Shown here: positions 4,070 to 37,044 of the stretch, in pieces
Layout of the letters: each line of letters opens with the position of its first letter
Position numbering within the stretch: position 1 is the first letter of the stretch
DNA from: Thermoleophilaceae bacterium
GTDB lineage: Bacteria > Actinomycetota > Thermoleophilia > Solirubrobacterales > Thermoleophilaceae
DNA: 42,147 bases
Assembly: GCA_030447905.1 (NCBI GenBank)
Contig: JAUJNZ010000001.1
Span: 143,531 to 185,677 of the forward strand
Direction: 5' to 3'
Position numbers and translations under genes: made by a program
Notes under the pieces: generated by a model
What the model was told of the DNA's origin: nothing
The model's database searches: none
Seen by the model: only the letters and a program-made list of their open reading frames with translations

Positions 4070-4252
4070 AGATGAACCAGCCAAGCCCGAGTTCGGCATG
4101 CCGAGCCGCCGGCGCCCGCGCCGGCGGACGGGGGAACCATGGGGCGCGCGATGTGCGTCCGGGGCGAATCGGCCGGTGCTCCGGCCTTAGCGGGATGGGA
4201 TGTACACCCCGCGAGCCCGTCAGCTAACCCCGTAGGCGACCGAGAAAGGAAG
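4070..4252 (+). promoter_or_regulatory. Cyclic-di-AMP riboswitch (ydaO/yuaA class)
   Basis: The leader of the RlpA-like gene carries the ordered conserved blocks of the ydaO class: gccaagcc (about 4079), ggggaacca (4131-4139), ggggcgaatc (4161-4170), agcgggatgggatgtacaccc (4188-4208), then gtcagctaaccccgtaggc (4219-4237) and a purine-rich gaaaggaag. Variable hairpins such as ccgccggcgcccgcgccggcgg sit between the blocks, as in known examples. In this class c-di-AMP binding generally turns expression down, and in actinomycetes the targets are often secreted cell-wall proteins, which fits the next gene. The downstream purine-rich stretch (4243-4251) probably doubles as the ribosome site for TTG 4261. 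The exact 5' limit is uncertain. Confidence 0.88.
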
Positions 4253-4260
4253 CCAGCCCC

Positions 4261-33521: not shown

Positions 33522-34797
33522 GCAGCAGGGCTCGCAGGACGTGCATCGCCAGAGTGGTCGAGCGGTCGCGGACCTCGGCCCGCTCGCCCGGGATGACGAG
33601 GTCACGGGCGACCTCCCGCCCGTCGGCGAGCCTCGCCGCGAAGCAGACGTAGCCGACCGGCTTCTCCTCCGTTCCCCCGCCGGGGCCGGCGATCCCCGTG
33701 ACGGCGACCGCCGCGTCGGCGCCTAAGCGCCCGACTGCCCCCGCCGCCATGGCGCTCGCCACCTGCGGCGAGACCGCCCCGTGGCGGGCGATCAGGGCCG
33801 GGTCGACGGCGAGCAGGCTCGCCTTGGCCTCGTCGGCGTAGGCCACGACGCCTCCGGCGAAGTACGCCGACGCCCCGGCCGGCCCGCTCAGCCGCCCCGC
33901 GAGCTCGCCGCCCGTGCACGACTCGGCCACCGCGACGGTCGCCTGCGACTCGCGTAGCAGCGCCGCCACCTGTTCGTCGACGGTCGCGCCGTCGTCCGAG
34001 AACAGCTGCGGTCCATGGCGTTCGCGCACGAGGTCCAGCAGTCCCTCCCAGGCCGCCTGTGCCGGTGGCTCGTAACGGACCCCGACCTCGAGCTCGCCGC
34101 GCCGCAGGCACGTCGTGACCTCGAGCTCGCCGAGCCGGTCGATGTGCGCCTCCCCCACCCGCAGCGTCTCGGCGATCTCGGACTCGGGGATCCCGATCAG
34201 CCGCAGCGTACGGTGCTCGTAGCGCGACCGCCCCGCCACCGCGGCCCTGAAGGCCTCAGTCGCGACGGCCTCGGGCCACAGGGACTGGAGCTCCCGGGGC
34301 GGGCCGGGGAGGACCACCAAGGTCGGGCGACGGTGGCCGTCGACCGGCGGAACGACCAGACCGGGCGCGGTCCCCGCGGGCCCCAGCACGTCCGCCCCGA
34401 CCGGGATCGTGGCCTGCTTGCGAGTGGAGGCCTCGATCGCCGCCTGATCGAGTCCCCGCCAGCGCTTGAGCAGCGGCTCGACGATGGCGGCGATGCGGCG
34501 CTCGAGCTCCTCGTCCAGAAACGAGTCGCGCCCCTGGAAGCGGCCCACGACCTCGGCGGTGAGGTCATCGGCGGTCGGGCCCAGCCCGCCGCTGGTGACC
34601 ACGAGGTCGACGCCCTCTGAGGCCAGGAAGCGAAGCTGGGCCGCGACGTCAGCCGGGCGATCGCCGCAGATCGCGATGTGGGCGAGCTCGATCCCGAGCT
34701 CGGAGAGCCGGTCGGCGAGCCAGGGACCGTTGCGATCGGGGACCCGCCCCGCCAAGACCTCGGTGCCGGTGACGACGATGCCGGCGCGCGCGCTCAC
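33499..34797 (-). CDS. cinA: CinA: competence/damage-inducible protein with NMN amidase domain
   Basis: 432 residues. The N-terminal molybdopterin-binding-like domain has [17 protein letters not shown] and [13 protein letters not shown] (pyrophosphatase in the family). The C-terminal PncC domain (about 265-430) has [17 protein letters not shown] and [17 protein letters not shown]; it deamidates nicotinamide mononucleotide to nicotinate mononucleotide, feeding the NadD-NadE route, so the link to the two nadE genes is natural. GTG 34797 ([11 protein letters not shown]) was chosen; TTG 34829 is possible but its ribosome site is too close. An IS110-type element lies immediately upstream and may disrupt the original promoter. 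Confidence 0.94.
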
Positions 34798-34847
34798 CGA
34801 ACGGCCGGGGCGGCTGCGCTCATTGGTCAACCTCCCCGCATGTCGAC

Positions 34848-35028
34848 CACCGCCGGGGGAGCGCCAACGGCGCTTGCCCCAAAGAGGGCCCGCATGAGAC
34901 CAGCGCCCCCGGCGGTGCGAGGCACCAGAAGCCCCAACAGGACGTCGCGCCCCTGAGCGCCCGTCAATGAGCGCCCGCAACGGTACCTCGCGGTCGAGGC
35001 AAACGCAACCGAGCGAGGAGGGAGACAG
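34848..35028 (+). ncRNA. Candidate IS110 bridge RNA
   Basis: IS110 elements encode a bridge RNA from the non-coding end next to the transposase; its loops pair with donor and target DNA. The 180 bases before the transposase are strongly structured: a perfect 12-bp stem (34848-34859 with 34906-34917) encloses 46 bases with inner hairpins AGCGCC/GGCGCT (34860-34874) and GCCC/GGGC (34876-34889). Then come a 14-base-period direct repeat TGAGCGCCCG (34954-34963 and 34968-34977) and a hairpin CCTCG/CGAGG (34986-34999) just before the ribosome site. The fold fits a bridge RNA, but pairing to the ends was not shown. Confidence 0.5.
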
Positions 35029-36239
35029 ATGGGCGCCTGCGCCGGCATCGACTGGGCCAAGGACAAACACGACGTGGTCGTCGAGGACAAACGGGACCGG
35101 GTGTTGCTCGACTTCACCATTGCCCACGATGAGGCGGGCATCGTCGAGCTGTGCTCGACACTCGTAGCGCACGAGGTCGAGCGCGTGGCCGTCGAGCGCC
35201 CCGACGGGCTGATCATCGAGCGGCTGCTCGCGGCGGGGCTCGTCGTCTTGGCGCTGCACCCCAACCAGGTCAAGGCCGCGAGGCCGCGCTTTCAGGTGGC
35301 GGCCTCGAAGTCCGACCGCTTCGACGCGTTCGTGCTCGCAGAGCTCGCCCGCACCGACTCCCACCGCTTCCGGGCGCTCGTCCCCGACGCCGACGAGACC
35401 AAGGCCCTGCGGGCTCTCACCGCGCCCGCGAGGACCTGGTCGAGGCGCGCGTCGCGCTCGCCAACCAGCCGCGCGCCGAGCTCGAGCGCTTCTGGCCGGG
35501 GACGGTGAGGTTGTTCGCCGAGATCGACTCGTCGATCACGCTCGCCTTCCTCGAGCGCTATCCGACGCCGGCCGCGGCGCGTGGGCTCGGCGAGCAGCGC
35601 CTCGGCGGCTTCCTCGCCCGCCACGGCTACTCGGGACGGCGCACGCCGGCCGAGTCGCTCGAGCGCCTCAAGGACGCGCCGCGGGGAACGGCCGGCGAGG
35701 CGGAGGTCGAGGCGCGCGGTACGGTCGTGCTCGCCCTTGTCGCCACACTGGGTCCGCTCGTCGAGCAGATCCGGCTCTTGACGAGCGAGATCGCCGGCGC
35801 GGTGCGCGCCCACCCCGATGGCGAGATCTTCCTGTCGCTCTTTCGCGACCCGAAGTCGGTGGTCTGCGCGGCCACCCTGCTCGCTGAGCTGGGCGACTGC
35901 CGCGGGCGCTATCCCTCGAGCGCCGCGCTCGCCGCCGATGGGGGCGTGTCGGCGGTCGCGGTCGAGTCCGGCCGGCGCCGAGTCGCGACCTTTCGCCGCG
36001 CCTGCGATCCGCGCCTGCGGGCGGCGCTCTCGACACTCGCCGACGCCACCCGCCACCACCATCCCTGGGCGAGGCGCCTCTACCGCGACGCCCGCGCGCG
36101 CGGCCACGACCACCCCCGCGCCACGCGCACGGTCGGGCGCGCGTGGACGCGCGTGCTGTGGCGCATGTGGCAGGACGGCGTGCCCTACGACCCAGCCCGA
36201 CACGGCTCTCTCTGTCGTCAATTGGCGACGGAGGGTTGA
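35029..36239 (+). pseudogene. IS110-family transposase with one frameshift
   Basis: DEDD-type recombinase of about 400 residues. N-terminal RuvC-like half: [24 protein letters not shown] and [17 protein letters not shown] supply the acidic residues. C-terminal Tnp-20 half: ATLLAELGDCRGRYPSSAALAADGG, then VESGRRR with the likely catalytic Ser. The frame from ATG 35029 (good ribosome site gaggaggga) is lost at about 35421: CTCACC-GCGCCC lacks one C, and the rest ([15 protein letters not shown] onward) is in the next frame to TGA 36239. One added C would restore a full protein, so it may be inactive or a sequencing error. Length with repair is normal. Confidence 0.85.
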
Positions 36240-36250
36240 CACAGGACGTC

Positions 36251-37044
36251 TCATGCCGCCCCGTCCCCGTCCGCACACGGGCGCTGGCCCGACGGTATCT
36301 GGCGCGGGTCCTTGCCGGGCGCAAAGGAGAAGCCGACCGATTTGGTCTTGGTGCCCAGGTCGACGTCGTCACCGTTGACGCGGACCTCCGCGGAGGGGCG
36401 CCCGAGATTGAGCCGCAGCCGCCGGCCGCGGAAGGATCGCGCCGAGGTCAGGCTCCCTTCGTAGAGCGGCGCCTCTCCCTCCCCGCGGTCGACGCACACG
36501 TAAGTGGGCTCCACCGGGCTGACCTTCAGCTTGACGCTCTTGGGCCGCGCGCGCGCTCGCGCCTCCGGCGCTCACGACGCTCGCGGCGCTCATCCGCCTC
36601 CCTTTGGACGGCCTGCTCGGTGCCGCCGTCCCCACCCTGCTCGGGCCCTCCGCCGCCGCTCGTGAGCCCGAGCACCAGGAACAGCACGAGCAGTGCGGCG
36701 ATGCCCCCGGCGACGAGCAGGCCGGTGGCCGGAGGACGCCGTTCGTAGCGCATCGGCTCCCGGCGGCTCGGCGGGCGCCGGAAGGCCGGCGCGGGGTCCT
36801 CGTCGGGGAGGCCCTCGCTGCTCGCGCGGAACTCTTCGACGATCACGCGGGCGTCGAGCCCGAGGTGCTCGGCGTAGGTCTTCAGAAATGAGCGGACGAA
36901 GGTCGGCCCCGGGAGCAGGTCGAACTCCTCGTTCTCGAGCGCACGCAGGTACTTCGCGCGGATCTTCGTCGCGCGCTCTACCTCGCCGATGTCGACCTGC
37001 TGGCGGATGCGCGCCTCGCGCAGGGTCTCACCGATCCCGGGCAT
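36251..37044 (-). pseudogene. rodZ: RodZ-like HTH membrane protein, frame broken at a CG repeat
   Basis: RodZ links the MreB cytoskeleton to the membrane; actinomycete homologues share an N-terminal HTH, one membrane helix and a DUF4115 periplasmic domain. Here: HTH MPGIGETLREARIRQQVDIGEVE and FVRSFLKTYAEHLGLDAR, membrane helix ATGLLVAGGIAALLVLFLVL (about 118-138), an Arg/Glu-rich linker, then DUF4115-like EPTYVCVDRG ... LYEGSLTSA ... VRVNGDDVDLG. The HTH frame stops at 36526, while the C-terminal part lies in another frame ending at 36251. The switch occurs at the (CG)5 run near 36546-36555; the total of 794 bases is 264 codons plus two, so removing one CG unit repairs it. ATG 37044. Confidence 0.82.

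Follow-up and report, generated by a model that had tools for sequence, protein, structure and literature searches.

A candidate bridge RNA with element-specific guides at the left end of an actinobacterial IS110-group insertion sequence

The folded stretch in front of a transposase gene from a Thermoleophilaceae bacterium is almost certainly the bridge RNA gene of an IS110-group insertion sequence, an RNA whose loops would guide target and donor and which would be made from the joined element ends. It lies in a window of 42,147 nucleotides (GenBank assembly GCA_030447905.1, contig JAUJNZ010000001.1), and all features of the element given below are on the plus strand of that window. An earlier note, made from the letters of the window, had proposed a candidate bridge RNA at this place. 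The proposal is borne out by covariation of the structure, by four guide arms and by the position at the left end. The RNA adds a member to an already known kind of guide RNA.

The element spans 34819-36249 (1,431 bp) and was inserted without a scar at a core CT. A search at the DNA level covered 151 genomes, the window's own genome among them. The three other genomes of the same genus that were compared (G002, G003 and G001) all have matches to a 501-base joined query that run through the site (501/501, positions 2-499 and positions 2-500, respectively); with a shorter joined query the G003 and G001 alignments cover the cinA side only. In G002 two abutting matches, to window 34780-34823 and 36251-36299, overlap by 4 bases and mark the empty site at the rodZ-cinA junction; the earlier note had proposed looking for empty sites. 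The flanks joined with 34819-36249 left out align to G002 over 261 columns at 91.6% with 0 gaps, and target duplication beyond the short core is therefore absent. The element occurs once in its own genome.

The insertion point lies between rodZ and cinA (names taken from the sequence and the earlier note), both of which are on the minus strand, and the rodZ stop codon is retained. The left target LT, GGCTGCG, is host DNA at 34812-34818 and is followed by the core CT; it lies at the rodZ stop codon and 26 bp upstream of the cinA GTG, and was assigned from the empty site in G002 and the guide match. The left end (34819-34825) carries the core CT and the right donor RD, CTCATTG. The earlier note had rightly seen the left end of an element but had placed its start at 34826, 7 bases inside the true start at 34819. 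The right end (36240-36249) carries the left donor LD, ACAGGACGT, at 36241-36249, and beyond it host DNA resumes with the core CT and right target CATGCCG (36250-36258), as mapped from the ends, the guide match and the empty site. We also observed a palindrome in the window at the rodZ stop, GGGGCGGC..GCCGCCCC (34803-34814 / 36255-36266), with the target as its loop; its arms match at 8/8, as do those of about 2% of control centres. A REP-like or palindromic target was rejected as a family trait, 17 of 18 joined sites lacking 8/8 arms and the window's being the only one that has them.

The transposase gene occupies 35029-36239. Its assignment to IS110 in the earlier note agrees with Pfam, which finds DEDD_Tnp_IS110 (PF01548, E 2.9e-25) on 35029-35508 and the C-terminal serine domain Transposase_20 (PF02371, E 2.9e-10) on 35424-36239, in two frames. 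A homologous transposase passes the NCBIfam model NF033542, 'IS110 family RNA-guided transposase', with 166.7 bits at a cut-off of 140. With 210 bp before the transposase and about 10 bp after its stop codon, the element has a long left end and a short right end. The RNA lies in the left end, upstream of the transposase, as in the IS110 layout, and not in the right end, a position that the earlier note had named as speaking against its proposal; the IS1111 group was rejected on this ground. A 7-bp inverted repeat in the window copy, GGTTGAC/GTCAACC, coincides with the candidate promoter boxes described below. It was rejected as an IS1111-like subterminal repeat, of which that group has 7-17 bp, since its left arm is lost in several homologues (L079 and L080, for example).

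Relatives were sought in the same 151 genomes and in 399 genomes of the class, 232 of the order, 103 of one family and 396 of the phylum. The named genome collection gave 27 loci, mostly from Solirubrobacterales and other Actinomycetota MAGs and including one Conexibacter genome; a few are labelled Chloroflexota or Bradyrhizobium and are possibly misbinned. From 40 named sources scanned we kept 27 distinct left-end RNAs, setting aside repeated instances of one and the same element, L067 (which has a damaged target loop and no donor loop), three loci with intron remnants (L075, L076 and L083) and four that were divergent or partial (L086, L088, L089 and L090). L042, whose contig stops before the left end, was counted for right target and left donor only and stands outside the structure alignment. 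Rfam recognises parts of group II introns in L075 (330-465), L083 (415-494) and L076 (1-211), upstream of the transposase and beside the 3' arm of the donor-binding stem. We considered whether the L075 bridge RNA contains such an intron, and the 5' half of the RNA was not seen upstream of the intron.

The bridge RNA is delimited by its covarying structure to about 34840-35005, its 5' end being predicted from the -10 box and its 3' end from the closing helix, and the covariance model finds it in the genome as a single hit (E 5.7e-34). The closing helix P1 (helix 1) joins TCGACC at 34843-34848 to GGTCGA at 34992-34997. Within it, the 5' arm of the target-binding stem (34849-34865; helices 2 and 3) pairs with the 3' arm at about 34903-34916, placed by the consensus structure, and the target loop holds an apical hairpin, GCCC/GGGC, at 34875-34889 (helix 4). 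The donor-binding stem (helix 5) is formed by GAGGCACC at 34919-34926 and GGTACCTC at 34982-34989. The apical hairpin of its loop, at 34946-34964, is GCGC/GCGC in the window and varies among homologues (GCGC/GCGC, GCCC/GGGC and GGCGT/ACGCC). A perfect 12-bp stem reported from the sequence earlier is present within the arms that a repeat search returns at 34848-34862 / 34903-34917 (15 nt, 93%). The strong structure reported with it is also real: the folding energy of 34826-35028 is -96.4 kcal/mol, compared with a mean of -78.2 for shuffled sequences (z = -4.0; none of 200 shuffles was as low). Relative to its own shuffles, the opposite strand is folded just as strongly (z = -4.55), so folding energy alone gives no strand, which comes from the guides and the homologues. 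A supposed 14-base direct repeat proved to be an exact 10-mer, TGAGCGCCCG, at 34954 and 34968 with a start-to-start spacing of 14; it is incidental, since the aligned homologues do not keep it and the copy at 34968 runs into the right donor guide.

Lack of covariation among homologues had been named as a way to refute the proposal, and covariation is present. RNAalifold applied to 26 homologues gives 21 pairs, 9 of them changed on both sides. To these pairs we added the P1 helix and the outer donor stem by hand, and the resulting consensus of 35 pairs is paired in 90.4% of 909 cells; 15 pairs and 56 cells are changed on both sides, compared with shuffled means of 7.6 and 18.4. None of 500 shuffles reaches any of five structure measures, and with slid partners pairing falls to 37-47%. 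P1 is the weakest helix, with 77% of its cells paired. The window sequence fails four consensus pairs: 115/163 and 116/162 in the donor-loop stem, 104/172, which is unpaired in 15 other homologues too, and 23/83 (a gap). The two-loop structure is thus conserved with covariation, as in bridge RNAs. The model built from the 26 sequences also detects the RNA ahead of the transposase at 14 more distant loci that did not enter the model (L089, L127-L136 and L140-L142; E 1.3e-15 to 4.8e-7); the same search gave no convincing match in L138, L139 or L126 and weak matches only in L137 and L088.

The guides are ordered LTG, hairpin, RTG in the first loop and LDG, hairpin, RDG in the second. The left target guide LTG (34866-34874) reads AACGGCG followed by the core CT, was assigned by its covariation with LT across 26 elements, and matches at 6/9 in the window copy, core included. 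The right target guide RTG (34890-34898) reads CCGCATG followed by AG, complementary to the core; it matches 36250-36258 at 8/9, again with the core, and was assigned by covariation in 19 elements. The left donor guide LDG (34937-34945), ACAGGACGT, is identical at 9/9 to 36241-36249, and the right donor guide RDG (34965-34971), CAATGAG, pairs at 7/7 with 34819-34825. Loop 1 therefore pairs with both target strands, core included, and loop 2 with both donor ends, as in known bridge RNAs. That guide segments might be legible in the loops had been foreseen, and loops that fail to pair with the element ends had been named as another way to refute the proposal; all four guides do match the target and both donor ends.

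The pairing with element ends and target is element-specific in all four guide arms. Own partners are matched better than those of other elements for LTG-LT (4.50 versus 2.73 of 7, n = 26), for RTG-RT (5.11 versus 2.75 of 7, n = 19, most strongly in the first five bases), for LDG-LD (8.63 versus 7.89 of 9, n = 19) and for RDG-RD (6.92 versus 5.69 of 7, n = 26). For each arm 0 of 20,000 permutations were as good as the observed pairing, although these sequences are related and the counts are not independent probabilities. RTG and its target switch jointly between the sister elements L066/L070 and L069/L042, and RDG and RD change jointly through CTATGAG/CTCATAG, CAATGAG/CTCATTG, CAGTAAG/CTTACTG, CTATCAG/CTGATAG and CTATAGG/CCTATAG. 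The RNAs of L066 and L070, from one genome (G081), are nearly identical except for the hypervariable bases of LTG, RTG and the hairpin loops. Some elements count against the pattern: in L060 both donor ends mismatch the guides of the element itself (8/9 and 6/7), LTG matches are weak (4/9) in L079, L087 and L060, each L073-type element for which both ends are available (L073, L080 and L062) has one LDG mismatch, and single donor bases are mismatched in L087, L085, L053 and L042. The donor ends of L060 (G313:C125) are those of the window element, and this copy is possibly a hybrid or was mobilised in trans. Together these elements offer a natural set of programmable recombinases from Actinomycetota, beyond the few systems studied experimentally, in which targets, donors and guides can be read from sequence and a natural change of core is included.

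The window copy itself is probably inactive at present, since its transposase frame is broken and two of the four pairs of the stem beside LDG and RDG are lost. The break, which the earlier note had given as one missing C, is a one-base frameshift near 35415-35425 that separates the DEDD (RuvC-like) domain from the serine (Tnp) domain; homologues with an intact frame exist, an intact relative being L077 in Conexibacter sp. DBS9H8, and the intact frame expected of an active element is missing here. The two lost pairs, 115/163 and 116/162, are C-C in the window, and in the 26 aligned rows the first is formed in 24 and the second in 25. Together with the single copy in the genome and an LTG that matches at only 6/9, these defects make it quite likely that what was a bridge RNA in the past is, in this copy, a decayed relic without present function. 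Against this, the donor guides still match perfectly, and a transposase provided in trans could allow the RNA to work. Of 59 residues scored as invariant across 19 homologues, moreover, the window copy differs at only 4, a number inside the 0-5 seen for 18 of these homologues (11 for L015), which points to a recent frameshift or an assembly error, although we rejected this count as a decisive measure of transposase decay.

The guides of relatives suggest a preference for a particular kind of site. RTG ends in TGAG in 15 of 27 elements. Of these, 11 have a right target, and RTG agrees with it at positions +1 to +4 in all 11; on the opposite strand the original codon reads ATG in 6 cases and GTG in 5, the guide matching each. 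The left end carries CTCAT, which is ATGAG read outward. Read from the ATG so restored, the host flank has an open frame of at least 200 codons in 7 of 14 elements and of at least 70 in 10 of 14; among 85 control RTGAGC sites taken from these flanks the shares are 17.6% and 40% (binomial 0.006 and 0.018). Pfam domains exceed the cut-off in 7 of the 10 longer frames (3HCDH_N, FAD_binding_4, HMA, adh_short, DUF6052, CDP-OH_P_transf and CoA_trans), the first domain beginning near the profile start at residues 5-44; among the remaining longer frames Pfam gave a sub-threshold HEAT match in L070 and none in L053 or L060. In the wider clade 10 loci were tried and 8 frames scanned, L130 (13 codons) and L136 (contig end) being left unscanned. 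L128 is placed at the sucD start (residues 1-289 aligned with positions 1-289 of profile NF004230), L135 at a HAD hydrolase, L142 at a SnoaL_4 protein, L131 at a histidine kinase whose GAF domain begins at residue 102 after an apparent membrane segment, and L141 at a frame with a thioredoxin match below cut-off; no family was found for the frames of L134, L024 and L133. Insertion at a start codon that the left end supplies anew was noted individually for L064, L065, L068, L069, L081, L015, L128, L135 and L142. Judged from these frames, RTGAG-type relatives often appear to sit on start codons (sucD and a copper ATPase, for instance), the left end re-supplying the start codon.

Additionally, pairing with the anti-Shine-Dalgarno sequence averages -7.9 in 14 RTGAG-type left ends, compared with -4.7 when shuffled, and -1.25 compared with -1.1 in 12 other left ends; it is weak in L065, L053, L060, L069 and L015. 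On the transposase tree the RTGAG trait is scattered, with four changes, L136 being scored as 'other' though its RTG reads GTGAG. We tentatively suggest, as a reading that is plausible but falls a little short of probable, that the window element belongs to a broad actinobacterial IS110 clade with a bridge RNA spelled so as to recognise the starts of translation. RTG would be the antisense of ATG-AG or GTG-AG and LTG the next codons, and the left end, read outward, would offer a Shine-Dalgarno-like AGG and ATG/GTG-AG, so that a gene split at its start codon would have its initiation region rebuilt and its protein unchanged, while single guide changes would repeatedly switch between ATG and GTG genes. 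A somewhat more doubtful account, though still a serious one, is that the association with start codons reflects only the survival of harmless insertions and not guide design. The motif encoded by RTG, CTCAY, is short and matches many sites that are not starts, and together with selection it could give the same pattern. Four of 14 elements have fewer than 25 codons after the restored ATG (9 in the window, 11 in L066, 21 in L009 and 20 in L019), and the window copy sits on an ATGAG that is no gene start. However, ATG-AG or GTG-AG is spelled in antisense by the RTG arms themselves, which change along with the target, 11/11 at +1 to +4, and design and selection are not mutually exclusive. Homing to start codons with rebuilt translation, if true, would explain spread with little harm and would suggest a route to DNA insertion at gene starts that leaves the gene unbroken. 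Among the papers listed in a literature search mostly confined to open journals, we recognised none linking a bridge-RNA guide with start codons. A published precedent for such targeting within the IS110 family is IS900: going by its title, a 1997 paper by Doran et al. reportedly has IS900 targeting translation initiation signals.

The bridge RNA reading is further supported by a natural core change. In L072 (136-318 and ends) the core is CC in donor and target instead of CT; its LTG ends in CC and its RTG and RDG end in GG. A search of the left end against Rfam with E up to 1 gave no family match, and the whole window gave only a c-di-AMP riboswitch elsewhere (RF00379 at 4089-4253, 50.2 bits). 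A role as a leader, attenuator or terminator hairpin that controls the transposase, in place of a guide RNA, is very improbable: the structure does sit immediately before the transposase start, and both strands fold strongly, but a leader predicts neither loops that match element ends and targets element-specifically nor the L072 core swap, and Rfam recognises no known leader.

For the bridge RNA, a mechanism may be drawn by analogy with IS621, from which transcription, protein binding and strand exchange are carried over. Upon excision the ends would join in a circle, and the joined ends would act as a promoter transcribing about 165 nt of the left end. The putative promoter is TTGACA-N17-CAACCT, its -35-like box (TTGACA, 36236-36241) and -10-like box (CAACCT, 34828-34833) being predicted from sequence and 17 bp apart. 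The -10 box is a poor match; it is matched in 26/26 on-contig left ends, although the left-end pattern demanded its A and T and their invariance is partly built in. The transcript would fold into two stems with internal loops enclosed by P1, with LTG and RTG of the first loop pairing with the bottom and the top target strand, respectively, and LDG and RDG of the second with the joined element ends. The recombinase, with its DEDD and serine domains, would then unite donor and target and carry out strand exchange at the core CT.

The element resembles IS621, whose bridge RNA was described by Durrant et al. 2024 (PMC11208160) and Hiraizumi et al. 2024 (PMC11208158), in its left-end RNA before the transposase, in two internal loops, target then donor, in the order and strand sense of LTG, RTG, LDG and RDG, and in a CT core within the pairings. 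Joined ends that form a promoter, predicted here, are reported for IS621 (PMC11208160), and a promoter of the same kind for ISEc11 and ISEc21 (PMC11187229). Handshake pairing is reported for IS621 (PMC11208158), and the corresponding positions fit: the bases after the core guide of RTG (34899-34900 in the window, their role taken from that paper) are AC in 27/27, complementary to the GT before the donor core in 17/19, and the base after the core guide of RDG is C in 27/27, with G before the target core in 26/26. These bases hardly vary, so the fit is consistency and not covariation. The IS621 protein is only distantly related to the window transposase (PDB, E 6.4e-14). The window family also differs from IS621 in RTG pairing over about 5 non-core bases, in an LDG spanning the 9 bases ahead of the core and apparently ending at or within it, and in P1, which closes both stems; no such helix was noticed in the IS621 passages compared, and IS621 has a separate 5' stem-loop.

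The seekRNA of ISEc21, also of the IS110 group (Siddiquee et al. 2024, PMC11187229), is alike in coming from an upstream non-coding region and in having its bottom-strand match 5' of its top-strand match. Natural re-direction of related elements, as seen here, was shown there for ISEc11/ISXne4. The active RNA of ISEc21 is a 74-nt species with target matches, whereas the window RNA is predicted from sequence. IS900, an IS110-family element of Mycobacterium, is alike in its target motif CATGNNNNNNTCTCCTT (PMC8141618), which can be read as a ribosome-binding site plus a start codon in antisense. In the window family, by comparison, the cut would fall after RTG-AG, inside the start region, the start codon would be provided anew by the element end, and the site can be assigned to the guide arm that spells it.
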